From a virus: a stretch of DNA of 21,219 nt. This document shows, piece after piece, positions 526 to 21,219 of the stretch (position 1 is its first letter; each line of letters starts with the position of its first letter). Under the pieces are notes generated by a model, which did no database searches, was not told the origin of the DNA, and saw only the letters and a list, made by a program, of their open reading frames with translations. The position numbers and the translations under genes are program-made. The stretch covers positions 1 through 21,219 of the IMG/VR virus record IMGVR_UViG_3300037247_000722; one strand, written 5' to 3'.

Positions 526-954
526 TCAAACTGCCAAGTTAAGTTGTTCGAGTCGCCATTTCGTCTGAGAACGCCACAGACCAACCATTTTAGAACTCAT
601 GTCAGTTTCTTCCATTATGTCACTTATATCGTAAACTGAATCAGTGAAAACGTCTATTTGAGCGTCATTTAGTACACGTCTCAATTCTTTTCTCATTGAT
701 ACGAACTGAGCACGAGACTTAGCTGTTCTTATGTCTAACATTATAAAGGTTTGAGTCTTTTTAGATTGACCGCCAGATGCGTTATCTTCAGGTGTGTATA
801 TTAATTCCCAAATAAATATGAAATCTCCACTATTGAGACTTACTCTTTTTACTTCAGAAATATCAGAAATAGTTGGAGTCCTACCGTTTGTGTTAGACTG
901 ATCCCAATTTGTAGATATAAGGTTAGCCACATCAATTAAAATATCATCTGCCAA
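526..954 (-). CDS. probable tail terminator / tail-completion protein
   Basis: The protein has 142 residues. The start is TTG 954: a GAGGT ribosome binding site lies 8 bases upstream, inside the end of the preceding gene, which it overlaps by 11 bases, and there is no ATG nearby. The N-terminus, an amphipathic helix (VANLISTNW) followed by a short loop and beta strands, and a C-terminal strand ending in a helix (WRSQTKWRLEQL) are the layout of small neck or tail-terminator proteins of siphoviruses. The third place after a connector gene also fits. It would cap the tail tube and dock it to the head. I infer this from size, layout and position; no diagnostic motif is visible, and another neck protein is possible. 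Confidence 0.5.
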   Translation of the reverse strand: MADDILIDVANLISTNWDQSNTNGRTPTISDISEVKRVSLNSGDFIFIWELIYTPEDNASGGQSKKTQTFIMLDIRTAKSRAQFVSMRKELRRVLNDAQIDVFTDSVYDISDIMEETDMSSKMVGLWRSQTKWRLEQLNLAV

Positions 955-1162
955 GTTTATCTACCTCTGGTTCTAATTTTGGTGTACTTAGATTAACTTT
1001 TCTTAAGTTGACTTTTTGTAGTACTAATATTTTTCCGCTGTTTTTATTTAATTTATTTTCCATGTAGTTTAATGCTTTTTCTAATGTATCAAATTGTTCA
1101 ATATCGTAATAACAACTCACCCTCCAAACGTCTGGACCATCTGGTAAGTATCCTGTTTCCAT
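944..1162 (-). CDS. hypothetical protein (72 aa) between connector and tail terminator
   Basis: It starts at ATG 1162, which shares one base with the stop of the connector gene (TAATG), and overlaps the next gene by 11 bases. Its last codons carry the GAGGT site used by that next gene, so the three genes are translationally coupled. The fold looks like one beta-alpha-beta unit (WRVSCYYDIEQFDTLEKALNYME) followed by a basic segment with two short repeats (KVNLRKVNLS). The family is unknown. The position between a connector and a tail terminator suggests a role in the head-tail joint, but that is inference. Confidence 0.65.
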   Translation of the reverse strand: METGYLPDGPDVWRVSCYYDIEQFDTLEKALNYMENKLNKNSGKILVLQKVNLRKVNLSTPKLEPEVDKLGR

Positions 1163-1779
1163 TATATTATAGCTACTTTTAGCTCCCTATTTGATTGAAT
1201 TATTTTATTTGCTTCTCTTTGCCAAATAGTTCGTTTGTCTATTAAAGGAATATTTGAACTTCCTTCCGGAAATAAAATAGACTTATCGTCAGACTCGACT
1301 ATTGCTATTGCTGTCAGTCTAATACATGCTTTTTCTATATCTTTTTTAACAGTAAGTTCACTAAATCTATAAGTTAATCTAACATCAAAAGTACGTTTAA
1401 TAATTCTTGGATAAGTTCTAATCCAAAGTATTCCGTCTTGTTGGTTTATCCAGTAATCATTATTTCGACCTTCGGTTCTAGTAACTAGATAATCTTCCCA
1501 ACCGTCATTATCTGAAGTACTTGTCCAAACTTCTAACTTGTCTCCGTCGCCAGTTGATAGAGTTTTAATATTTCTGTTTCCCATAAAGATTTTAATTCCT
1601 TCGTATCTAAGAGTCGGATTATCTATTGTATGATATTCTTTTGTGACAGTTTCACTTTTCCAAGAGTTCATAGTTAACTGATTTATTTCATCTTCAGATT
1701 GTTCAATCATTTCTTCTACTTGTGTTTTAGTTGGCTTAGTCGTTCCGTCGAATTTCTTAAGCTGAAGGAAACTTGCCAC
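1162..1779 (-). CDS. head-tail connector (gp6-like adaptor), 5' end apparently frameshifted
   Basis: The open frame starts with GTG 1779 and gives 205 residues. The N-terminal helix region (PTKTQVEEMIEQSEDEINQL) followed by a beta-rich middle and a C-terminal helical part (DIEKACIRLTAIAIVES) matches the DNA-packaging connector layout of HK97 gp6/SPP1 gp15-type adaptors, which form the ring below the portal. Members usually begin with a 'YC..xxV...L' helix. That segment (VDYCSSDKVASFL) is present upstream in the same frame, but no ordinary start codon precedes it. The promoter and the leaderless ATG (1823) are in another frame, one base off. The real protein is probably about 219 residues starting at 1823; see the entry at 1780-1823. 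Confidence 0.7.
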   Translation of the reverse strand: MASFLQLKKFDGTTKPTKTQVEEMIEQSEDEINQLTMNSWKSETVTKEYHTIDNPTLRYEGIKIFMGNRNIKTLSTGDGDKLEVWTSTSDNDGWEDYLVTRTEGRNNDYWINQQDGILWIRTYPRIIKRTFDVRLTYRFSELTVKKDIEKACIRLTAIAIVESDDKSILFPEGSSNIPLIDKRTIWQREANKIIQSNRELKVAII

Positions 1780-5970: not shown

Positions 5971-6555
5971 TTAGTTTAAGATTATTCCTTTTTCGTATCC
6001 AAACATATCAAAGTCTTTCTCATATAACTTAAGAACTTTTTTCGCAGTAGAGACATTATAATATTTTTCGAAGTCTACTTTGTCTGTTTTATTTTCGTGA
6101 CGTAATTCTACATTTTTTATTTTTATTTTATCACAAATTAACTTAAAGTCTTTTTGTATGTTTTCAAATTTACCAATAAAATCTGGAGTCTCTGGTAGAA
6201 AAGTATATTGAGGTCTAAAATGAATATCCATGTTTTCTATTTTTGTATTACTAACCACTTCAACAAATCTTTCAAAGCTCATATTTTTATGAAGTTCTGG
6301 ATGGTTTTGTATATTTTGTAAAGATCCTTTTTGGATTACGTGTCTAAAACAACTAGCCAATCTATCAAAGGGATTCCTAACAAAAGTAAACTTAAAAGAA
6401 TTTTTATTATATTCTTCTACCTTATTGAACTCATGATTTTTTCTAAAGGATATTAAAATAGAAGTACTTGCTACTTTTGGAACACGGAAATAAGTAGCAT
6501 TATGTTTCTCAAAGGAAAAAATCATTTTTTTAATATTTGAATGTGGATAATTCAT
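5971..6555 (-). CDS. sulfotransferase family protein (Sulfotransfer_2-like)
   Basis: The protein has 194 residues. Sulfotransferases move a sulfuryl group from PAPS to a hydroxyl or amino group, often on glycans. Both cofactor motifs are visible: the 5'-phosphosulfate loop at 24-33 (RVPKVASTSI, with Lys27) and the 3'-phosphate motif at 58-70 (FVRNPFDRLASCF, with Arg60 and Ser68). The later segment IHFRPQYTFL matches the acceptor-side 'H-x-x-P-Q' region of this family, and the DFIGKFENIQKDF motif follows the family pattern. The length is near the lower end for the family, but the core is complete. There is no signal peptide, so it would be cytoplasmic. Start ATG 6555 overlaps the previous stop as ATGA. 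Likely targets are host or virion glycans; this is inference. Confidence 0.85.
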   Translation of the reverse strand: MNYPHSNIKKMIFSFEKHNATYFRVPKVASTSILISFRKNHEFNKVEEYNKNSFKFTFVRNPFDRLASCFRHVIQKGSLQNIQNHPELHKNMSFERFVEVVSNTKIENMDIHFRPQYTFLPETPDFIGKFENIQKDFKLICDKIKIKNVELRHENKTDKVDFEKYYNVSTAKKVLKLYEKDFDMFGYEKGIILN

Positions 6556-7580: not shown

Positions 7581-7588
7581 TTTATAAA
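7581..7588 (-). promoter_or_regulatory. TATA box containing the stop codon of the previous gene
   Basis: TTTATAAA is centred 25.5 bases above ATG 7559. The TAA stop of the homing endonuclease (7582-7584) lies inside it, so the sequence TTA TAA is both the last codons and the promoter. Confidence 0.75.
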
Positions 7589-8427
7589 GTTTTCTTTCTA
7601 CTTTGGATTTTTAATTCTGCTTCTCTTATCTTTCTTCGTGCTCTGTTTGTTTTGTTTCTACATTTAGTAGAACAATATATTGTAGTAATTTTAGGAGCTT
7701 CGAATTCTATTCCGCATTGATTACAATTTACCATAAACTTCTCTACTGGAACATAACGAGATTTATCAAAACACTTTCTTGAACAATATGTTTGATTTCT
7801 TGCTTTTGGACTATATAATATCTCTTTCCCACATACTATACAATTCTTATCAAATATTTGAATATCATCTTTTATATAAGACCAAATAAAATGATGAGAA
7901 AAGTTTCTTTGTTTATTACAGCATTGAGAAATGTGACCTACTCCAAAACCTAATTCTCTATTAATATCCATTAGGCTATCCCATTGTTTTATGAAATTTC
8001 CTTTTAAGTCATATTGAAATACTGTTTTAGAGTTTTGATGAAGTTTGCCGAATCTACCGAACATATGATTATCTTCTCCTAATTGAAGAGGTTGTAACCC
8101 TGTGTCATAAGCGTGTTGTTGGTTTTCTGATCTAGTTGTCCATTCTAAATTAGTAAAGTGATTGTTTATAGTATTCCCGTCTATGTGATTTACTTCGGGT
8201 TTATTCTCTGGGTTTGGGATGAAAGTTTTGGCTACTAGTCTATGTATTGTTTTATTATATTGAATTCCATTATTCATCAAAGTTACAGCTCGATAACCCT
8301 TTCCAGAAGATATTACACCACCTGTCATTAATTTTTCACTTTTTATAGAATAAATCTCTCCAGAATCTAATACTAAATAATTTGGGAAATCTTTGATAAT
8401 TTTAGTTCGTATGACTTTAAGTTTCAT
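7582..8427 (-). CDS. HNH homing endonuclease with NUMOD domains and two zinc ribbons
   Basis: The protein has 281 residues. Domains in order: NUMOD4-like strand region about 12-55 (FPNYLVLDSGEIYSI); HNH nuclease 60-108 (IHRLVAKTFIPNP, then VNHIDGNTINN and NLEWTTRSENQQHA) with His62, Asn80-His81 and Asn93 in the expected places; NUMOD1-like DNA-binding segment 134-184 (VFQYDLKGNFIKQWDS); and two Cys4 knuckles at 196-219 (CIVC...CSRKC) and 235-256 (CNQC...CSTKC). Free-standing enzymes of this type nick or cut at a conserved target and spread into it. It sits between the capsid gene and a virion gene, under its own leaderless promoter. It is intact and probably active; no intron signs are seen. 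Confidence 0.9.
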   Translation of the reverse strand: MKLKVIRTKIIKDFPNYLVLDSGEIYSIKSEKLMTGGVISSGKGYRAVTLMNNGIQYNKTIHRLVAKTFIPNPENKPEVNHIDGNTINNHFTNLEWTTRSENQQHAYDTGLQPLQLGEDNHMFGRFGKLHQNSKTVFQYDLKGNFIKQWDSLMDINRELGFGVGHISQCCNKQRNFSHHFIWSYIKDDIQIFDKNCIVCGKEILYSPKARNQTYCSRKCFDKSRYVPVEKFMVNCNQCGIEFEAPKITTIYCSTKCRNKTNRARRKIREAELKIQSRKKTL

Positions 8428-8468: not shown

Positions 8469-9617
8469 CTATAGCAAATCCCTTAGCTTTCCTTGTGATT
8501 GCAACGATGTACAACGAATCTCTCCGTTTGTTCTATACATACCCTTAGTAGTAAATTTGTCTATCACGAAAGGAGTATTATCGTTTATACCTGCTTGGAA
8601 GTATTGAGTTGGATGAGAGATGTCTAAGCTAAGTCTTGGCTTACCTGATCCTTCTGGGTCAGATGTATCAAGAAAATACATTCTACTGATAGTATCCTGA
8701 GCAACATCTTTAGATTCAATCATAGGTATTTGGTAAATAGTGCTGATTCTAATTCCTACGTCTATTCCGTTTTCTGTTTGAATACCGTTTACACCTACTT
8801 GTACCTTTGCTTCGCCTAGTACGTTGTATCTAACTTGATCCGAGTAAAGTGCGATTGCAGTTCTTGCAGTGTCATATCCTGTATTAATTACAGTAGTATT
8901 TCCGCCGTCTTCTTTAATATTATAAATCATTGTTCTAATTAGAGAGTCACTTAGTGCTCTGTCTGTACCAGAATTGTGTGATACGTTTGAATCAAAAGTG
9001 CTAGCTGAATCTCTGTCTAGTCCAAAGATGTCAAAGTATGCGTCATATGTTCCACCAAAAGCGTCTTCTTCAGAATCTGAACTAATTACTCGGTCGATTG
9101 TTTCAAAGCCAGTCTTACCTGTATAATTAGCAGTTGCCGCACCAGCTTCAGTACTTGCATCTACTAGTAATAGCTGGTTCATTGCTTCTTTGTGCTTAGT
9201 GCCCATAATTTCTCGTTGGTAAGCTAAATCGCCGATAGCGTCGTCATCGTTTTGTACGAAGTATTCTTGGTGCTCGCTTACTTCAAAAGTATGTGCGTTT
9301 GTTTTTAGTGTATTTGAAACTTCCTTAAATGTTGGCTTAATTGTATCTGGAAGTGCTCCGCCTTCTGCTACTCCACCATCTGCTGTACTACCTGCTCGTG
9401 CTGTTTGTAGTCTCCAACCTGATTTATCCCATACAGTTTTAGGAAGGATTCCGACTGTGTTTGCTTCTTGGTTAAATGTAGCCCAAACAAATTGACCGAA
9501 TACTCGGTTATATACTCCAGTAGTTGAACTTAAAATAGGTGCATCACTTTTAGAAATCATACCTGGCTCGCCTCTATATGATAAATCTACTAGTTCTTGG
9601 ATTGTGTTAATTTTCAT
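8469..9617 (-). CDS. major capsid protein, HK97 fold
   Basis: The protein has 382 residues, in the usual range for HK97-type capsid proteins. The start ATG 9617 overlaps the protease-scaffold stop as ATGA. An N-terminal arm (TIQELVDLSYRGEPG) is followed by 'VYNRVFGQFVWATFNQEANT' and 'ILPKTVWDKSGWRLQTAR', the region leading to the E-loop, then the long spine helix (KHKEAMNQLLLVDA), and a later A-domain strand-rich part (GVRISTIYQIPMIESKDV-like text). The C-terminal strands (FVIDKFTTKGMYRTNGEIRC) complete the P/A domains. Position directly after a protease-scaffold gene is diagnostic. It assembles the procapsid and is probably processed at its N-terminus by the protease. Confidence 0.85.
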   Translation of the reverse strand: MKINTIQELVDLSYRGEPGMISKSDAPILSSTTGVYNRVFGQFVWATFNQEANTVGILPKTVWDKSGWRLQTARAGSTADGGVAEGGALPDTIKPTFKEVSNTLKTNAHTFEVSEHQEYFVQNDDDAIGDLAYQREIMGTKHKEAMNQLLLVDASTEAGAATANYTGKTGFETIDRVISSDSEEDAFGGTYDAYFDIFGLDRDSASTFDSNVSHNSGTDRALSDSLIRTMIYNIKEDGGNTTVINTGYDTARTAIALYSDQVRYNVLGEAKVQVGVNGIQTENGIDVGIRISTIYQIPMIESKDVAQDTISRMYFLDTSDPEGSGKPRLSLDISHPTQYFQAGINDNTPFVIDKFTTKGMYRTNGEIRCTSLQSQGKLRDLL

Positions 9618-10156
9618 TGTAGTCCTGCCGCCTTAATCATTTTATTTGCTTCAATTGAAGTCTTTGGTGCTGCAATTTCAGTCTTTTTGATTTCGTTTGT
9701 TTTGATTCCTGCCCTTGGAGTATCTGCTTTTTTGTTAATTAATTCTTTCATTATGTCTGCTTTCATGTCTTCTTTAATTTTTTCGATTCCTTCTTTTTCT
9801 AAGAAATTTGCTTCTGGCTTGTCTGAGACTGCCCCTTCTGCTGGTTTATCTTGAGAAACTTCATCGCCTTCGCTTTCTGGTAATTTTACCTCTTCTCCGT
9901 CTCCTTCTTTTTCTACGTCTTTATCCTTATCCTTATCTTTTTCCTCGTCTTCCTCTTTTTCAACTTCTTTTTCCTTTACTACTTCGACTGGTTCTTCTAC
10001 TTTATTAACAGAAAGTAATTCAATAATTTTATCCATCTTAGAACTTAGAACAGCCATAGGGTCTTCAGTTGGAACAGAATCAGCAGCCATTGGAGCTTCC
10101 TCAACCTTCTCTACTTTCTTTTCGTCTTCTGGTTTTTTTGTTTCCTCTTCTGCCAT
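9614..10156 (-). CDS. nested scaffold protein (180 aa) from internal start
   Basis: An in-frame ATG at 10156, residue 333 of the protease-scaffold gene, is preceded by a TATA box (10179-10186) at the same distance as at leaderless operon starts here. The product would be a 180-residue, Glu/Lys/Val-rich, coiled-coil protein (MAEEETKKPEDEKK ... IEANKMIKAAGLQ) and would contain the whole scaffold without the protease. The arrangement is the same as phage lambda gpC and Nu3, where a scaffold is made from the 3' part of the protease gene; lambda uses an internal translation start, whereas here a separate transcript is suggested. The evidence is the promoter position and the domain boundary; expression is not proven. 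Confidence 0.6.
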   Translation of the reverse strand: MAEEETKKPEDEKKVEKVEEAPMAADSVPTEDPMAVLSSKMDKIIELLSVNKVEEPVEVVKEKEVEKEEDEEKDKDKDKDVEKEGDGEEVKLPESEGDEVSQDKPAEGAVSDKPEANFLEKEGIEKIKEDMKADIMKELINKKADTPRAGIKTNEIKKTEIAAPKTSIEANKMIKAAGLQ

Positions 10157-11152
10157 ATTCTTATTTAAGATATTCTTCTTTATATATGTTTCGTCTTTGT
10201 TGTCCCTATTGAGTAAAGTCAAATCATCTTTACTTTGTGATTCTTTTTCTATTTTATCGTCGGTGTCGCTTTCTTTGTGTTCTGTCTTAGTAGAATCACT
10301 TGTATTTTCTATTTTCTTTTTTTCATCTGATTCATATTCTTTTTCTATTTTTTCTACTCTTGCTTGTAAAAATCCACAGAACGCTTTTGGGTCATCTTTA
10401 TCTTGATTTGCTGAAACACAGGCATCAAAATCTTTAAACCCAGCAAAGCCTTTCTTAACTTTATTTACTAACATTCTGATTAACTCGTGTGAGTGTCCAT
10501 TTTCTAGAACTACTATTCCAGATTCTATTAAGTGAGTATGTTCTTCGGTTTCACGAGGAAGTGTTCCTAATGTCTTTCCGTCGCCTGATTCATCTATTCG
10601 ATATAAATGATAATGATCTGAGTCAGTACTTGTTTCACCGTCTTCCTTTTTGATTGGTTTATCTTCTTTGGCAATGAAATTAACTTCTTCGATTGTTGCT
10701 TCTTTGTTGCATCCCTTTGGAACATAAGAAAACTCAAATCCCTCTAGTTCTTTTAATACTTTTTGAGTTAACCCTTTTGAGAAATCTAATTCTTCACGAT
10801 TGTTTTTTCCACCAAATGAAAAGCCTTCAACTTCGCCTTTTTTGATGTCAGCCCATACTTGGTCGTCTGATCCAAAATCTTTGAATACTTCAGTAGTTAA
10901 ATATACTCCTTCTCTTGGTCCAACTGGAGTATCTTTCATTTTAAACTCATAATTAAGAATCTTAGCAACCGATTGATTAGTATGTCGATTCATAATAAGA
11001 CCGCCTCGTTTCATGATTACTGGCATAATTCGTTTAAATTCGTCTATTGGTAATCTTTCGTTTGCGTTATCGAAAACATCAACAGTTCCAAATCCTTTTA
11101 CTATTCTGGCATTCTCATCATGTATTTCTATTTTTGGTACTTGTGTTGGCAT
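9614..11152 (-). CDS. prohead protease fused to scaffold, with His- and Cys-rich inserts
   Basis: The protein has 512 residues. Residues 1-160 are a Caudovirales prohead serine protease: the catalytic His is in IMNRHTNQSV (His57), the Ser in EGFSFGG (Ser112), and the closing strand is FEFSYVPKG. Residues 180-225 form a His-rich module (HYHLYRIDESGDGKTLG, HTHLIES, GHSHEL), likely metal-binding. Residues 242-262 carry FDACVSANQDKDDPKAFCGF, a Cys pair motif that I recall from protease or portal-associated proteins of other head-tail viruses. Residues 265-512 are highly charged, coiled-coil and disordered, typical of scaffolds. An internal promoter and ATG at residue 333 would also give a free scaffold. 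The gene is leaderless and coupled by ATGA to the capsid gene. Confidence 0.85.
   Translation of the reverse strand: MPTQVPKIEIHDENARIVKGFGTVDVFDNANERLPIDEFKRIMPVIMKRGGLIMNRHTNQSVAKILNYEFKMKDTPVGPREGVYLTTEVFKDFGSDDQVWADIKKGEVEGFSFGGKNNREELDFSKGLTQKVLKELEGFEFSYVPKGCNKEATIEEVNFIAKEDKPIKKEDGETSTDSDHYHLYRIDESGDGKTLGTLPRETEEHTHLIESGIVVLENGHSHELIRMLVNKVKKGFAGFKDFDACVSANQDKDDPKAFCGFLQARVEKIEKEYESDEKKKIENTSDSTKTEHKESDTDDKIEKESQSKDDLTLLNRDNKDETYIKKNILNKNMAEEETKKPEDEKKVEKVEEAPMAADSVPTEDPMAVLSSKMDKIIELLSVNKVEEPVEVVKEKEVEKEEDEEKDKDKDKDVEKEGDGEEVKLPESEGDEVSQDKPAEGAVSDKPEANFLEKEGIEKIKEDMKADIMKELINKKADTPRAGIKTNEIKKTEIAAPKTSIEANKMIKAAGLQ
10179..10186 (-). promoter_or_regulatory. internal TATA box inside the protease-scaffold gene
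   Basis: The minus strand reads TATATAAAG, centred 26.5 bases above in-frame ATG 10156. It lies just where the variable linker ends and the scaffold begins, and it has the sequence of the operon promoters. It could also supply extra capsid protein mRNA, because the capsid gene follows. Confidence 0.6.
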
Positions 11153-14103: not shown

Positions 14104-14111
14104 TTTATAAA
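14104..14111 (-). promoter_or_regulatory. TATA box, overlapping stop of YkgJ-like gene
   Basis: TTTATAAA is centred 23.5 bases above ATG 14084 and contains the TAA stop (14105-14107) of the gene before it. It does not sit at leaderless distance from any long reading frame. Confidence 0.6.
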
Positions 14112-14644
14112 TATTCCTTAAAATTAAGAATCATTTCTCTTATTGTTTTATCTCTTAGAATATCTATCTCTTGGATTATTTCATATTTAAAAGTACAAAC
14201 ATCTATTACTTCGTGATATACTCCATCTGATAAACTTGGAAACTGTTCACAGGCTCTTGGGAATCCCTTTAAGACTCCATCTCCACCGTTTGAATAATCT
14301 ATTTCTTTTTCTGAATTGTCCCATTTTTTACAAGTTCCATTTTTATCGAGAAACTTACAAGTTTTTTTGCAAAGTATATTTTCTCTTTTTTTGCTTATTT
14401 CACCAAAGCCTTCCCAATACTCATGAGGATAAGGAAGACTGCAAAACTTACAACAAGCATTTTTACATTTTTTATAATCACATTTACCAACTCTTTTAAC
14501 GATTAGAAGTTTATCTTTTGTACTTACTAAATAAACATATCCTTCTAAATCTAGTTTTCTTATGTAATCAGAATCTTTTATTATATTAAGTGTTACGTAT
14601 TTTGTTTCTGGTTCAGTATCAATCTCTTTTACTTTTTCTTTCAT
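14105..14644 (-). CDS. YkgJ-like Cys-cluster metal-binding protein
   Basis: I start the gene at ATG 14644 (179 residues), because it lies 25.5 bases below a TATA box; the in-frame ATG 15 bases upstream (14659) would begin too near the box. Ten cysteines occur: 55, 60, 64, 65 and 68 in KCDYKKCKNACCKFC; 92, 96 and 105 in LCKKTCKFL and GTCKKW; 132 in RACEQFP; and 150. The pattern C-x4-C-x3-CC-x2-C and C-x3-C-x-F-L-x(4)-G-x-C fits the UPF0153/YkgJ family, which binds metal and whose function is poorly known. A long N-terminal part (1-50) is beta-rich and unassigned. It is a single-gene transcription unit, by its own promoter. Confidence 0.65.
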   Translation of the reverse strand: MKEKVKEIDTEPETKYVTLNIIKDSDYIRKLDLEGYVYLVSTKDKLLIVKRVGKCDYKKCKNACCKFCSLPYPHEYWEGFGEISKKRENILCKKTCKFLDKNGTCKKWDNSEKEIDYSNGGDGVLKGFPRACEQFPSLSDGVYHEVIDVCTFKYEIIQEIDILRDKTIREMILNFKEYL

Positions 14645-14665
14645 ATAAAAGATAAACACTTTGAC

Positions 14666-15035: not shown

Positions 15036-15227
15036 TTAAAGGGATTTGGACTTTTTAGATTTTTTGATTAAGAAAGGTTTAATTTTTTTCTCAACAAATA
15101 CACTATTTTCTTCAAGTGAATAAATTAATACTTCTCCACCAACTTCTAAGTCTAAATCTTTCATGTCTGTTTGCTCTAACTTTACGTAGAAAGATGTTCC
15201 TATTTTTCTAATTTTTCTTTTTCTCAT
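15036..15227 (-). CDS. AbrB/SpoVT-like DNA-binding protein
   Basis: The protein has 63 residues. Residues 5-45 follow the swapped-hairpin pattern: IRKIGTSFYVKLEQTDMKDL, then DLEVGGEVLIYSLEE and VFVEKK. In AbrB-type proteins a dimer of these strands binds DNA as a transition-state or antitoxin-like regulator. The basic end (KKSKKSKSL) may add DNA contact. The start ATG 15227 has a GAGGAT site and overlaps the previous stop as ATGA. It closes an operon of six small genes that starts at 16033, several with zinc-binding proteins. A regulatory role for viral genes is likely, an antitoxin role possible. Confidence 0.75.
   Translation of the reverse strand: MRKRKIRKIGTSFYVKLEQTDMKDLDLEVGGEVLIYSLEENSVFVEKKIKPFLIKKSKKSKSL
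15052..15059 (-). promoter_or_regulatory. weak TATA-like box within end of AbrB-like gene
   Basis: The minus strand reads TCTAAAAAG, centred 25.5 bases above ATG 15030. It overlaps the last codons (KKSKSL) of the preceding gene. The sequence is a poor match; spacing is the main support. Confidence 0.4.
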
Positions 15228-16099: not shown

Positions 16100-18157
16100 T
16101 TATGCTAATTTAACAAAGCTGTGCCTTTGATTAAAATGAGAAAACCAATCTCTGTCTGGTTTAAATCCATGCTTGATTGACATCTTTCTAACTAAAGTTT
16201 TAAGTGCTTCTAATTTTAAGCCCTTAGTAGATTTTTTCTTTATTTCTTTTGATACACCCGCAGTTCTTGAATCTGAAGGTCCGAGCCATTTGAAAAGAAA
16301 GTTTTCAGAACCTTCAGCTTTAGTAAAATTAAACTCACGAATATTATTCTTAAGTACAGCGTTTTCAGTTCTAGCAATTAAATCAGCTTGTCCTTTTTTG
16401 ACTCCTAATCCTTGGATCTCTTTTGATATGACTGTGATAGATTTTTTAGAACTCATTCCATCTAGGATTATGTTATTGATTTTATTAGACATTGCTCTAG
16501 TTTGGTTTTCGTAAACTTTGTCAAATATATCTTTAGCGATTAAAGATAGTAAAGCTGGATCTAGTTCTTTCTTTACGTCAAAGACTACACCTTGTTTCAT
16601 TATCTCCTGTTTGCTTATTTCTGAATATTTTTTTACCTTATTTAATATTTTATTAAGATTTCTTCCGTCTGCTAAATCTAGTATCTTGTTTGTAAAAGGT
16701 ACAAACGGTTCGTTTATTAGTTCAGGGTTTGTTGCTACTTCAGAGAAACTAAACTCTTTTAGTTTTTCGTCCCATGTTACTTCGAATCCCATTGAACTCA
16801 TTTTAGTTGCGTTGTCAATTAGTACTCCTACTTTACTGGCTTCTTCCATTTCATCGTCTTCTTCGGGTTCTCTTAATTTAAATGCCCAATCGTTTATTCC
16901 CCAGTTTTTAGTAATCCAAGGAAATACTTTATCGTTATACATTTCTTGTGCGTCATCTACTGCTATGTTTGTTACGTCAACTTGAAAAGTTTCGTTATTT
17001 AATCCGCCTGAAGTTTGCACATCTCCTTGGAATATTGGCATTATTCCCCACATACTTGCTATAGCCCTACGATCCTCATTTCTAAATTCTATTAATTGCA
17101 TTTCTTGTGGGCTCTTTAGAAAATCTATAAACTGAACTGGATTTTTTCCGTCTTTGTTTTCGATCAGAAGGGGATGAATTCCATGTGGATTCTTAGCGGA
17201 CTCTTCCATTAAGTTTTCCCATGACTTTTTAGCACTTGCAAAGTTAGTAGTACCGACTGTAAGTAATGCTCTAGGCGGTCTTCCTTTTGTATAATTAAGT
17301 AAAAAGTATCTATCTTGACCTAGTAAGGTTACTATTTTCATCCAACACGCATGAATATTTGAGTACCCATATAAAAGACTTGGATTCCATCTAGATTGGT
17401 GAATTACTTCGCCTTCTATGTAATAAATATATTTAGATAGACTGTCATTCATTGAATTTGCTCCGTAGTCTTTTCCTAGTTCTCCTCGATAATGAGTAGG
17501 TACTAATTTTATTCCTTCGCTGTTTTGGAATCCTTTTGACTTAGCTTCGGTTTCTGTTATTATTTGGTATCTATCTGTTGGGTCTACGTAAACTTTTTCG
17601 CCACTATCATTATATCCTTTTCTGCCTTCGGAGTCTGCTATTATTCTCATGTAAGCAGGATGTGCAGAAAATATTTCTTTAGGAGTAGATCCTATTATTT
17701 CTCCGTTCATAAAAGAATAAGATTTAGCCATTACTAAATAAGAATCGTCTGTTACGTCTATGTTTTGTTCAAACATTTTTAACATATCTTTAAGAGTTTG
17801 GTCATTTTCATTTATTCGATGAAGCATTTTGTCCATTATATCTGATTCTTGTTCACTTGGGTTTTCTACAAGTGGAACTTTTTCTATACCTCGTCTGAAT
17901 ATTTTTCTAATTAATGCGTTTATTATTGTTCTAAGTATGTCTGACTCGTTGAATAATCTGTCTAGTCTATGATAGTCATGATACCCGTCATAATAAACAG
18001 GAATTTTAACTCCATCAAAATCTGAAGGGTGTCTATATTGTTCTGCGTCTGGTCTCATCATTTGATAATCTTTAAGTGCTTTTCTAATATTAGTTACTTC
18101 TGTTTTCATATCTGAGAAAGCTGAACCTTTTTTTATTTCATATCCTAATATAGCCAT
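16100..18157 (-). CDS. portal protein fused to MuF-like minor head domain
   Basis: The protein has 685 residues. Residues 1-470 follow the SPP1/HK97-type portal: YRHPSDFDGVKIPVYYDGYH, the wing region, then the clip and stem pattern RNEDRRAIASMWGIMPIFQG and TSGGLNNETFQVDVTNIAVD, near residue 372. Residues from about 530 form a MuF-like minor capsid domain (VYENQTRAMSNKINNIIL, KKGQADLIARTENAVL, LFKWLGPSDSRTAGV, SHFNQRH). Portals form the 12-fold DNA entry ring, and MuF proteins lie inside the head and are often ejected with DNA. A fusion of both is known in some archaeal and bacterial viruses. The start ATG 18157 is leaderless; the end of the HNH gene lies in the promoter region. The stop is TAA 16100. 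Confidence 0.85.
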   Translation of the reverse strand: MAILGYEIKKGSAFSDMKTEVTNIRKALKDYQMMRPDAEQYRHPSDFDGVKIPVYYDGYHDYHRLDRLFNESDILRTIINALIRKIFRRGIEKVPLVENPSEQESDIMDKMLHRINENDQTLKDMLKMFEQNIDVTDDSYLVMAKSYSFMNGEIIGSTPKEIFSAHPAYMRIIADSEGRKGYNDSGEKVYVDPTDRYQIITETEAKSKGFQNSEGIKLVPTHYRGELGKDYGANSMNDSLSKYIYYIEGEVIHQSRWNPSLLYGYSNIHACWMKIVTLLGQDRYFLLNYTKGRPPRALLTVGTTNFASAKKSWENLMEESAKNPHGIHPLLIENKDGKNPVQFIDFLKSPQEMQLIEFRNEDRRAIASMWGIMPIFQGDVQTSGGLNNETFQVDVTNIAVDDAQEMYNDKVFPWITKNWGINDWAFKLREPEEDDEMEEASKVGVLIDNATKMSSMGFEVTWDEKLKEFSFSEVATNPELINEPFVPFTNKILDLADGRNLNKILNKVKKYSEISKQEIMKQGVVFDVKKELDPALLSLIAKDIFDKVYENQTRAMSNKINNIILDGMSSKKSITVISKEIQGLGVKKGQADLIARTENAVLKNNIREFNFTKAEGSENFLFKWLGPSDSRTAGVSKEIKKKSTKGLKLEALKTLVRKMSIKHGFKPDRDWFSHFNQRHSFVKLA

Positions 18158-18163
18158 AGTTAA

Positions 18164-18490
18164 TTAAGTAGTTTGTATTTTATTAAACTTTGCTTTTCTG
18201 TACTTTTCATATACCCTCTTAACTTTCTTGTAAAAATATTTATGATGAAGTTGAGTATGATGTTTTTCACAAATAATTTCTAAATTAGATTTATTATTGT
18301 TTTCTTTAATTGATTGAGGTATGTCGTGATGGACTGTTAAATTTTTGTTATTTATTTTGTTATTTATTAATTTGCAGATAATACAAAATTGTCTTCTTTT
18401 TGGAATATATCCGTATCTATTTGTGACTTTTCTTTTTGGAAATTTTATCACTCTTTTTTTTACTTTTCTTGGGTTTCCTTTTTTATTCAT
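18164..18490 (-). CDS. small HNH endonuclease between terminase and portal genes
   Basis: The protein has 108 residues with a very basic N-terminus. A zinc-coordinating pair (FCIICK, Cys36 and Cys39) and the HNH core (LTVHHDIPQSIKENN, with His54-His55; then NLEIICEKHHTQLHH) are complete. Start ATG 18490 overlaps the terminase stop as ATGA. Small HNH proteins next to terminase are common in tailed viruses with cohesive ends, where they nick DNA during packaging (as gp74 of HK97); a free homing function is the alternative. The position between large terminase and portal favours the packaging role or a selfish insertion. The sequence does not decide. Confidence 0.85.
   Translation of the reverse strand: MNKKGNPRKVKKRVIKFPKRKVTNRYGYIPKRRQFCIICKLINNKINNKNLTVHHDIPQSIKENNNKSNLEIICEKHHTQLHHKYFYKKVKRVYEKYRKAKFNKIQTT
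18178..18185 (-). promoter_or_regulatory. TATA-like box for portal gene
   Basis: The minus strand reads TTTAATAAAATAC, centred 24.5 bases above ATG 18157. It lies inside the last codons of the HNH gene. Confidence 0.5.
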
Positions 18491-19692
18491 ATGTTTTCTC
18501 CAAATAATGCACTTGCGTCTAGTATTCCTGATTTACCTTGACCTTCAGATAATGTAGAAAGCCCATAGCGAATTGCGTCCATGCCGTGATCATTTAATTC
18601 AACAGGAGAATCAAGTACGTGTTCGTCTTTGTCTACTTTCCATTTGTATGATCTGAATTCTTTTATTAATTCTAGAGATCTTTCTGTTACATAGACTTTA
18701 TGATTTTTGACGAAATTAATACCTCTTAATACTGAGTCTTTACCTTTTCTTGCACCACGACAATTATAACCTGATCTGCTTATGTCTTCTATTATTTCAG
18801 GTCTGGCACAGTCTCCGAATATTTCATCGTCATAATTAAGTAGTCCATCTTCTTTTAATTTATCATGTTCTTTGACTATTTGGTCGCTTGTTAATTGAGG
18901 TTTGTAAAGAAGCAAGTCTATGTAAATTCCTTCTTTATGATATTTTATTCTAAGTATAACAGTTGGATTATTAAATCCATAGTCTTCTCCGAAGAATTCT
19001 TGACCTTCTATGTCTTCCCATTTTTTATTAATAATCTCCCAGTTAGAATAGATAGTAGCTTGAGCAACTCCCTTTAAACCTAGTCCGTAAATTCTCCAGT
19101 AATTTGGATCTGTTTCTTTGTATTTCTTGATCTGCTTAATAATTCTATCTGGTAAAAATGGGTTGTCTCTAAATGTTGTAATGAAGAACGCTGTATCTTT
19201 ATCTGTTAGAATATGGTCATAAATCCAATGGAACTCGTCTGAAGGATTGTAATCTCCTATCGTTAACTCCTTAGTTCTTTGGTTTAACTGCTTATACGCT
19301 TTATATTTAAATCCGTTTATTTCATTACAAAATAATATATCTCTACCTGGACCTCTTACTTTTTGGTCGTCATCTGCTCCAAAGAATCTAAAAATATTAG
19401 ATCCTATTCTATAAATTGATTCAGACTTATTGTGCTTTTCTACATCGTATTTATCCATTTTCTCTAATATTTGAAAGAAATCAAACATAGCACTGGCTCT
19501 TAAGCTTGTCATAGTTTCTCGAACTATGTCTATTACTTTGTTGTCCCACTCTGTTAAAGCTTTGACAATTAACCACATTAAAATATTGTAACTTTTGCCC
19601 GATCGTGTGCCGCCTTGCTCGATTATTGTAGGACTTCCTGCTTTGTATGCTTCTTCCATGTGGTCATACACTACAGTAGACTGAATTTTCAT
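18487..19692 (-). CDS. terL: terminase large subunit
   Basis: The protein has 401 residues. The ATPase has Walker A at 27-34 (GGTRSGKS), Walker B at 117-124 (RDILFCNE, with Asn-Glu instead of Asp-Glu), and the TTFRDNPFL coupling segment at 172-180. The nuclease has the acidic residues of the RNase H fold: Asp237 (GEDYGFNNPT), Asp294 (GDCARPE) and Asp372 (NDHGMDAIRY). This is the motor that cuts and pumps viral DNA into the procapsid through the portal. The start ATG 19692 overlaps the small-subunit stop as TAATG, and the stop overlaps the HNH start. The layout is of the Terminase_3/PBSX kind. Confidence 0.92.
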   Translation of the reverse strand: MKIQSTVVYDHMEEAYKAGSPTIIEQGGTRSGKSYNILMWLIVKALTEWDNKVIDIVRETMTSLRASAMFDFFQILEKMDKYDVEKHNKSESIYRIGSNIFRFFGADDDQKVRGPGRDILFCNEINGFKYKAYKQLNQRTKELTIGDYNPSDEFHWIYDHILTDKDTAFFITTFRDNPFLPDRIIKQIKKYKETDPNYWRIYGLGLKGVAQATIYSNWEIINKKWEDIEGQEFFGEDYGFNNPTVILRIKYHKEGIYIDLLLYKPQLTSDQIVKEHDKLKEDGLLNYDDEIFGDCARPEIIEDISRSGYNCRGARKGKDSVLRGINFVKNHKVYVTERSLELIKEFRSYKWKVDKDEHVLDSPVELNDHGMDAIRYGLSTLSEGQGKSGILDASALFGENI

Positions 19693-20165
19693 TAACTCTC
19701 TATGGGTTCTTCTGAATCCTCATCCTCTTTCTTTTGAATTCTTATTATTTCTACTTGTAATTTGTTGTCTATTTTCCCGCTATGTTCTATTTGTTGAGAT
19801 TCTACCCAGCCTTTAGATTTTCCTAGTCTAGATGTAATATATTGAGCTGCGTTTTGTCTTATTCTTGCTGCGGTTGCTGGTTCTTTTTCGTAATCAAAAA
19901 ATTCTAATTGATTGAATATTTCTGCTTCGGCTCGGTCTATATTACTTAATCTTTTTTTTGCGAGTAATTCTTTGATTTCAGGGTGTTTTTCTAAATAATG
20001 ACATACTGCTCCATGAGTTATCTTAAGTCTTTGTGAGACGTCTGTAACGGTTCCTGTGCTATCTTCTATGGCTACTTTGTACATTTTCTTAGTTATTGCG
20101 TTACTTTTGTGACTTTTGACTACTTTCACTTCTTTTTCAACCTCTTTTGTTTCTAGTTCATTCAT
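19692..20165 (-). CDS. terS: terminase small subunit
   Basis: The protein has 157 residues. A helix-turn-helix occupies about residues 38-60 (GTVTDVSQRLKITHGAVCHY), the packaging-site binding part. The following helix (HPEIKELLAKKRLSNIDRAE) and the segment ATAARIRQNAAQYITSRLG form the oligomerisation core of small terminases, which join as a ring. Residues 130-157 end in a charged tail (KKEDEDSEEPIES). The start ATG 20165 is leaderless below its own promoter, and the gene is coupled to the large subunit by TAATG. It recognises viral DNA and regulates the large subunit. Confidence 0.8.
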   Translation of the reverse strand: MNELETKEVEKEVKVVKSHKSNAITKKMYKVAIEDSTGTVTDVSQRLKITHGAVCHYLEKHPEIKELLAKKRLSNIDRAEAEIFNQLEFFDYEKEPATAARIRQNAAQYITSRLGKSKGWVESQQIEHSGKIDNKLQVEIIRIQKKEDEDSEEPIES

Positions 20166-20195: not shown

Positions 20196-20606
20196 TTATT
20201 GGATTGGATTCTGATTATCCCATGAAAAAGAAATTATTGGAATTCCAGTTCCAGTATGTAGCAAACTCCAATGTGTAAATAACAATCCGTCTTTAAGTTT
20301 TTGGATAATTTTATCATTCAAGGTGTTATATGAGATGGATAATTCTACATGTCCATCATCAAAATCACAAATATCACTCAAACTGTTTTCTATATCTTTT
20401 ACAGTAATATCTCTCGATTCTTTGACTCCCACTATATTATTCCAAATCCCCATACTGATATAATCTTTATTGAAAATTGGTCCTTCTTTGACTTGGTCCG
20501 ATGATAATTCAATAGGTTCATTTTCTCCTAGTATTTCTTGAATTATTGAGTAGACTTTAACTTTCCCTATTTGGGTTAGTTCGTTCTCTACTAGATATTT
20601 ATTCAT
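20196..20606 (-). CDS. hypothetical protein (136 aa) after chaperonin operon genes
   Basis: I start at ATG 20606, which overlaps the previous stop codon as ATGA, as in most operon joints here; an in-frame TTG at 20633 would give nine more residues (MDIIRRNWI) but lacks support. The product begins MNKYLVENELTQIGKVKVYSI and seems an alpha-beta protein (VELSISYNTLNDKIIQKLKD, LLFTHWSLLHTGTGIPIISF). No family is recognisable. It shares the operon with the thermosome. Confidence 0.55.
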   Translation of the reverse strand: MNKYLVENELTQIGKVKVYSIIQEILGENEPIELSSDQVKEGPIFNKDYISMGIWNNIVGVKESRDITVKDIENSLSDICDFDDGHVELSISYNTLNDKIIQKLKDGLLFTHWSLLHTGTGIPIISFSWDNQNPIQ

Positions 20607-20785
20607 AATCCAGTTGCGTCTGATAATATCCAACTTTCTAATTCAGATTCAGTTATCATATTTATTTTAAGTTCTAAGTATTTTAATACGATTGGTCTTG
20701 TCTTTTTTCTAAAGAGTAGAAACATTACTAATCTTAATATACTCATTCGGGTTAATTCAAATAGATTTTTAATTTTGTTTAACAT
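20603..20785 (-). CDS. short basic, partly hydrophobic protein (60 aa)
   Basis: The gene starts at ATG 20785, 17 bases inside the thermosome gene, so it is read from the same mRNA. Residues 1-50 are basic with a hydrophobic helix (MSILRLVMFLLFRKK) that may lie on a membrane. The rest is an acidic helix (TESELESWILSDATGL). The family is unknown. The hydrophobic part is short for a true transmembrane helix. It is coupled by ATGA to the next gene. Confidence 0.55.
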   Translation of the reverse strand: MLNKIKNLFELTRMSILRLVMFLLFRKKTRPIVLKYLELKINMITESELESWILSDATGL

Positions 20786-21219
20786 CTTGACCCTTTGCGA
20801 GAACTAATTCGTCTACCCTAAGAATTAGAACGGCGACTTCAGTGGCTGAATTAATTGCTTGAGTTTTGATTTTACTTGGTTCTATTATTCCTGAACTAAA
20901 AGTGTCTTCTATTTTTTCTGTGAATAAATTTAATCCTACTATTCCGTTTTCTAGTTTTTGTTTTAACTCTGTGATTACGTTAATTGAATCAAGTCCGGCG
21001 TTTTCTGCAAGTGTCTCTGGGATAAATTCTAGTGCATTTGCGAATTGTTCTACTGCTAATTGTTCTCTGCCACTTAATGTTACTGCGAATTCTTTTAATC
21101 GTTTGCTGATTATCATTTCGATTGCTCCACCTCCTGGAACTACGCTTGAATCATTTACTGCACTTATTACGTCACCTATTCCGTCTGTTACTGATCTTTC
21201 TATTTCGGCTGCTATATGT
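20769..21219 (-). CDS. group II chaperonin (thermosome), C-terminal part
   Basis: The frame continues to the right edge and so lacks its N-terminus; 149 residues are seen. The sequence IERSVTDGIGDVISAV, then VVPGGGAIEMIISKRLKEF, REQLAVEQFANALEFIPETL, AENAGLDSINVI and SSGIIEPSKIKTQAINSATE is typical of the intermediate and equatorial domains of archaeal thermosomes; the PGGGA motif and the AENAGLD loop are signature sites of the ATP-binding part. The C-terminus stops early, as GQDVKQN, without the Gly-Gly-Met-rich tail of many host thermosomes. It would form a ring folding chamber in the cytoplasm. It lies directly before packaging genes. Presence in a viral operon suggests a role in folding capsid or fibre proteins; this is inference. 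Confidence 0.9.
   Translation of the reverse strand, partial: HIAAEIERSVTDGIGDVISAVNDSSVVPGGGAIEMIISKRLKEFAVTLSGREQLAVEQFANALEFIPETLAENAGLDSINVITELKQKLENGIVGLNLFTEKIEDTFSSGIIEPSKIKTQAINSATEVAVLILRVDELVLAKGQDVKQN

Follow-up and report, generated by a model that had tools for sequence, protein, structure and literature searches.

Virus-encoded group II chaperonins are already known, and the closest described examples come from archaeal head-tail viruses. Thermosomes have been reported in Marine Group II (MGII) virus genomes of clade 1 (Nishimura et al. 2017, PMC5332604), which are of the magrovirus type (cf. Aoguangviridae, PMC10768690), and aoguangvirids have been described with GroEL/GroES (PMC10768690). 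Predicted archaeal virus contigs (RaFAH) also carry thermosomes (PMC8276007); these are group II chaperonins like the one considered here, and the passage on them does not single out DPANN viruses or analyze lineage, synteny or capture. Phage T4 encodes a lid, gp31, that replaces GroES, its capsid protein needing a special and apparently larger chamber (PMC3012670). Vibrio phage GroEL (phrog_5725) is likewise a phage-encoded chaperonin subunit, but it belongs to group I and is ~27-29% identical to the protein described below. A search of open-access literature found no paper joining thermosomes with DPANN viruses. What is new here is a DPANN-virus lineage with its own thermosome and evidence for repeated capture of the gene.

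We analyzed a window of 21,219 bases that constitutes an entire viral record. A chaperonin fragment lies at its right edge, upstream of and on the same strand as two small ORFs, the genes for the small (TerS) and large (TerL) terminase subunits, an HNH-like ORF and the portal gene. The features referred to in the text are as follows.

20769..21218, minus strand: group II chaperonin (thermosome), C-terminal 149 aa, 5' part off the contig (Pfam PF00118, NCBIfam, tree)
20603..20785, minus strand: small ORF, 60 aa, its start overlapping the chaperonin end by 17 bases (ORF list)
20196..20633, minus strand: small ORF, 145 aa, or 136 aa from the ATG at 20606 (ORF list)
19692..20165, minus strand: putative TerS (precedes TerL; homologous to the pre-TerL gene in the viral relatives L002 and G306)
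18487..19692, minus strand: TerL (Terminase_3 E 9.5e-24, Terminase_3C E 9.9e-14; phage_term_2 above cut-off)
18164..18490, minus strand: HNH endonuclease-like ORF (PHROG HNH families E 6e-7)
16100..18157, minus strand: portal protein with MuF/gpF-like C-terminal part (phrog_18178 E 5e-39; tblastn to halovirus portals and gpF-like proteins)
9614..11152, minus strand: putative prohead protease/scaffold (weak PHROG protease match; same place before the capsid gene in relatives)
8469..9617, minus strand: major capsid protein (MCP), HK97-type, SU10/HVTV-like (PF17236 E 2.5e-11; phrog_24667 E 5e-55)
1162..1779, minus strand: head-tail connector-like protein, role inferred (phrog_17057 E 1e-33)
526..954, minus strand: neck/tail-completion-like protein, role inferred from position (phmmer matches)

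The first-pass annotation had described two small genes and then terminase and portal after the chaperonin, and this order is confirmed, with TerL, HNH and portal identified by family and TerS by homology. The window TerL is 69% identical to that of L002, the nearest terminase relative. The 60-aa ORF has no family match in Pfam, PHROGs or NCBIfam, and the same collections gave no GroES-like match among the small neighbor ORFs. A co-chaperonin identity for the 136-aa neighbor was considered and dropped, as this ORF has no family match in the three collections, no relative in viral contigs and a single-sequence fold with a pLDDT of 38.

Several other features of the window were observed. The portal and a MuF-like domain are fused in one 685-aa protein, whereas in haloviruses such as HCTV-1 the gpF-like protein stands by itself. 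The late module includes a sulfotransferase (Sulfotransfer_2, E 1.5e-23; 5971-6555, minus strand), a candidate enzyme for modifying glycans of the virion or the host; it is conserved in the corresponding position of G306 (L444, 8117-8701) and found upstream of TerS in L002 (905-1477). The capsid gene is immediately followed by an HNH endonuclease with a NUMOD-like motif (7582-8427, minus strand), likely a selfish homing element. A 184-aa protein (14105-14659, minus strand) has a Cys-rich cluster (CDYKKCKNACCKFC) and no match in Pfam, PHROGs or NCBIfam, and a 63-aa protein (15036-15227, minus strand) resembles AbrB/SpoVT-type DNA binders by eye and lacks a Pfam match. Where the window holds the thermosome and the two small ORFs before TerS, the relatives L002 (1474-2922 and 3330-4565) and L445 (13711-14244) have methylase-type genes, by eye a cytosine methylase and a ParB-like/adenine methylase.

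The reading of this record as a head-tail archaeal virus was borne out by the capsid and portal proteins. In a tblastn search of 50,697 annotated phage records, the MCP matched only archaeal tailed viruses, namely the Haloarcula viruses HVTV-1 (the best, at 34%), HCTV-5 and HCTV-1 and a Methanofastidiosa virus, and the portal likewise matched archaeal viruses only. For TerL alone the nearest kin are in bacterial phages, such as those of Flavobacterium, and this terminase is of a widely shared type (574 contigs). The HK97-type MCP, portal and TerL, with archaeal tailed virus kin through the first two, place the virus among archaeal Caudoviricetes. Its hosts would be tiny, uncultured DPANN archaea, probably of the Pacearchaeota order. 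Searches of 200 genomes of this order with MCP and portal, uninformative for want of a positive control, found no provirus, and most of the host genomes searched gave a single group II-like chaperonin match.

On the minus strand, the chaperonin frame enters at the contig edge (21218), stays open for 149 codons and ends with a stop codon at 20769-20771. Since the window is the whole record, the N-terminal ~375 residues (the N-terminal equatorial domain, the apical domain and most of the intermediate domain) lie beyond the contig edge and are unreadable here. Pfam PF00118 (Cpn60_TCP1) covers the fragment (profile 346-489 of 490, E 6.6e-46), NCBIfam archaeal thermosome models match at ~E 1e-46 (TIGR02339, E 6.5e-47) against 1.3e-17 for the best GroEL model, and among proteins of solved structure the archaeal group II chaperonins are the closest. 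These sources agree on the original group II call, the thermosome match being the stronger, and on the sequence evidence a chance match to the chaperonin family is excluded. The motifs quoted at first reading (PGGGA, AENAGLD, IIEPSKIKTQAI, QDVKQN) are all present in the fragment. Among the ATPase residues, for which a check had been proposed, the C-terminal part keeps the catalytic Asp (equivalent to Mm-cpn D386; D12 of the fragment) and the GGG motif (G29-G31), which are invariant in the alignment. A gp31-type co-chaperonin identity was ruled out, as what the gene encodes is a subunit of the ring itself.

Among cellular proteins in GTDB genomes, those of Ca. Pacearchaeota match best (63%), and the best host identity among 200 genomes of the order is 65%. 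Ca. Pacearchaeota thermosomes L131 (PFOR01000015.1) and G235, 63-65% identical over the C-terminal part, represent the likely source lineage. In trees of host and viral thermosomes, an analysis suggested by the first-pass annotation, the fragment nests inside the Pacearchaeota-order clade with an SH-aLRT of 100 in three trees, its exact position within the order differing from tree to tree. Its end branch measures 0.8-0.9 changes per site versus a median of ~0.25, about three times that of host copies. The fragment nevertheless retains 31 of 34 near-invariant positions (those conserved in ≥95% of 155 cellular copies), and at four-fold third bases it agrees with the nearest hosts at only ~26-58%, the silent sites being saturated. 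A long branch with residues kept at silent-site saturation points to a captured, constrained viral gene rather than a host-DNA chimera. By these phylogenetic measures the window copy is old, constrained and fast-evolving, and does not belong to the chromosome of a present-day host.

Scanning for relatives of the capsid protein yielded G306 (IMGVR_UViG_3300023284_001148, 38.5 kb), the closest large viral relative found, with a capsid protein 70% identical to that of the window. The two share the late-gene orders TerS-TerL-portal and protease-MCP-sulfotransferase-connector-neck. G306 encodes one complete thermosome of 514 aa that matches the whole profile (1-489) with no large gap and has LGPKGMDK, NDGATI, GDGTTT and the catalytic Asp. 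This protein, too, is long-branched and nests in the Pacearchaeota-order clade, and it shares with the window the Val of LRVD, a position held by Ile in 99.4% of cellular copies. A single clade of the window and G306 copies was not rejected (p-AU 0.43), yet is absent from the best tree. In G306 the gene is found 6.6 kb upstream of TerS, surrounded by small early-looking genes, so that tight coupling to the packaging genes is not conserved. Faster evolution of the apical domain in the G306 copy was looked for and not seen: apical identity between G306 and L131 is 46% (58% for the N-equatorial part) and that between the host copies L283 and L131 is 61% (76%), so that it falls in step with the rest.

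The viral copies also differ from host copies at the C-terminus. After the LRxD motif there are 12 residues in the window and 10 in G306, compared with 18-32 in 54 host-order copies; all complete cellular copies examined have at least 18, the lone value of 15 belonging to a gene cut by a contig end. Beyond its tail, the window copy has a 2-residue loop deletion and LRVDE where host copies, on shorter branches, have LRIDD. The lack of a GGM-type tail had been taken as a departure from host copies, but many Pacearchaeota copies lack the GGM repeat too, and the actual difference is one of length. Short tails also occur in a magrovirus-like group (7-8 aa; magrovirus identity by resemblance) and in two further viral groups, whereas the group of L082 described below lacks them. 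The association of virus carriage with a short tail gave a raw rank test p of 9e-19, uncorrected for kinship; with 2-4 independent pairs, a number that cannot reach significance, this is not taken as proof. With a shorter tail, the chamber may have more free space.

These observations bear on two accounts under which the edge of the window would hold no working viral gene. The gene sits at the very end of the contig and its nearest kin are cellular, as would be expected if the last bases were Pacearchaeota chromosome, joined through misassembly or through a provirus beside the host thermosome. This is very improbable, since the branch is three times as long as in host copies, the tail is shorter than in any of the 54 host copies, the gene is on the same strand as the next ORF and runs 17 bases into it, and the syntenic virus G306 has its own copy with the same rare Val. 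The chimeric edge of which the first reading had warned is therefore disfavored, and so is the broken gene of the same warning, the counterpart in G306 being unbroken. Decay of a captured host gene is the least credible account of all: the 3' part alone is visible, with a shortened tail and a loop deletion, but the frame is open, 31 of the 34 near-invariant residues are kept at silent-site saturation, and the intact gene of the relative already disfavors a remnant.

The wider distribution of viral thermosomes was examined by scanning viral contigs. The fragment alone as query found no relatives there, while an alignment query recovered 49 contigs with a thermosome (L082-L130) from several unrelated viral branches; the portal alone similarly found none where its alignment query succeeded. 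Most of the 49 thermosomes have unusually short C-terminal tails. In L082, G325 and G332, complete thermosomes lie between connector and neck genes, with homologs of the window connector-like protein directly upstream and of the neck-like protein downstream; the sequenced parts of these records share with the window connector and neck and, in L082 and G332, capsid and protease as well. The figure for the capsid protein is 48% (L082/L287). These three thermosomes group beside Woesearchaeota copies (support 81-85), and their union with the window and G306 copies into a single clade of five DPANN-type viral thermosomes was ruled out by the AU test (p-AU 0.0002), from which it follows that related viruses recruited a thermosome at least twice. 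On the evidence of these trees, the copies of L082, G325 and G332 were captured separately from a Woesearchaeota-like source. A third thermosome type lies between TerL and portal in L092. Altogether 5 of the 88 capsid or portal relatives searched carry a thermosome, in addition to L082 and L092, though many records are fragments, and this minority carriage marks the gene as accessory. None was found among 50 terminase relatives; L002 starts only 4.5 kb before TerS, and its missing thermosome therefore says nothing.

The MGII/magrovirus-type systems resemble the window in that an archaeal head-tail virus carries a host-derived, short-tailed group II chaperonin, complete in MGII viruses. They differ in being a separate capture, far outside the Pacearchaeota clade; shared chaperonin ancestry was rejected, the window copy being placed in the Pacearchaeota-order clade with support 100. 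In the magrovirus-like records L093, L100, L121, L122, G347 and G361 the thermosome lies among non-structural genes. Virus thermosomes, at first said to be known mainly from magroviruses, are not limited to them, given 49 viral contigs from several lineages and the five capsid or portal relatives. The proximity to packaging genes that was first remarked upon stands for the window and fails as a general rule, in view of G306 and the magrovirus-like records.

Whether such a gene serves the virion in particular is a separate question. It could be a moron, a virus-carried gene for general host support or takeover that aids protein folding as a whole under infection or stress; we regard this as unlikely. 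The non-structural setting in the magrovirus-like records, the position of the G306 copy away from TerS, the patchy presence among capsid and portal relatives and the parallel drop in apical identity, which gives no sign of a retuned substrate site, all speak for it. What speaks against it is that the copies of the window, L082, G325, G332 and L092 are placed among, or directly adjoin, head, packaging or neck genes. It is also conceivable, if improbable, that the viral subunit forms no stand-alone ring and instead joins host subunits and redirects them. Hetero-oligomers are common among group II chaperonins and the gene derives from the host's own lineage, but the single group II-like match in most host genomes indicates that mixing is not their norm, and the viral protein diverges from host copies by at least 35%.

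Given what is established (family, strand, position, host-lineage origin and constraint of the gene, and its intact full-length counterpart in G306), we judge it probable that the virus carries a functional captured thermosome gene and supplies its own folding chamber for virion proteins. The virus-specific chamber proposed at first reading is the best-supported reading because the syntenic relative has a complete gene, and the gene position in the window, L082, G325, G332 and L092 suggests virion proteins as clients. The gene would have been taken from a host of the Pacearchaeota order and then have evolved fast under purifying selection, and the window would hold the 3' end of a complete, functional copy. 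The thermosome would be made together with the late genes, and its subunits, as in the family generally, would assemble into the usual double ring and fold enclosed proteins upon ATP-driven closure of the built-in lid. The first candidate clients are the HK97-fold capsid protein and the portal. A chamber of its own would free the virus from dependence on the host thermosome, a gain for an HK97-fold virus in a small-genome host that usually has one thermosome. As with T4 gp31 and host GroEL, the virus would supply a part of the folding chamber for an HK97-fold capsid protein (PMC3012670), but gp31 is a GroES-type lid on a group I ring, whereas the window encodes a whole group II subunit with a built-in lid. 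A bolder version, in which DPANN viruses repeatedly made the host thermosome a dedicated capsid-folding chamber and, in the window/G306 lineage, trimmed the tails that extend into it to make space for HK97-fold proteins, as a group II counterpart to what gp31 does for T4, is doubtful.

Very little is known about the viruses of Pacearchaeota and other DPANN archaea, organisms whose genomes are very small and usually encode a single thermosome. That a virus should bring a folding chamber along suggests that virus assembly in these cells is limited by how much folding the host can provide, and the recurrence of independent captures is a sign of real selection. The viral thermosome offers a host-linked marker gene for placing otherwise unassigned archaeal viruses, and the short-tailed viral copies provide a natural set for testing chamber volume against substrate range.
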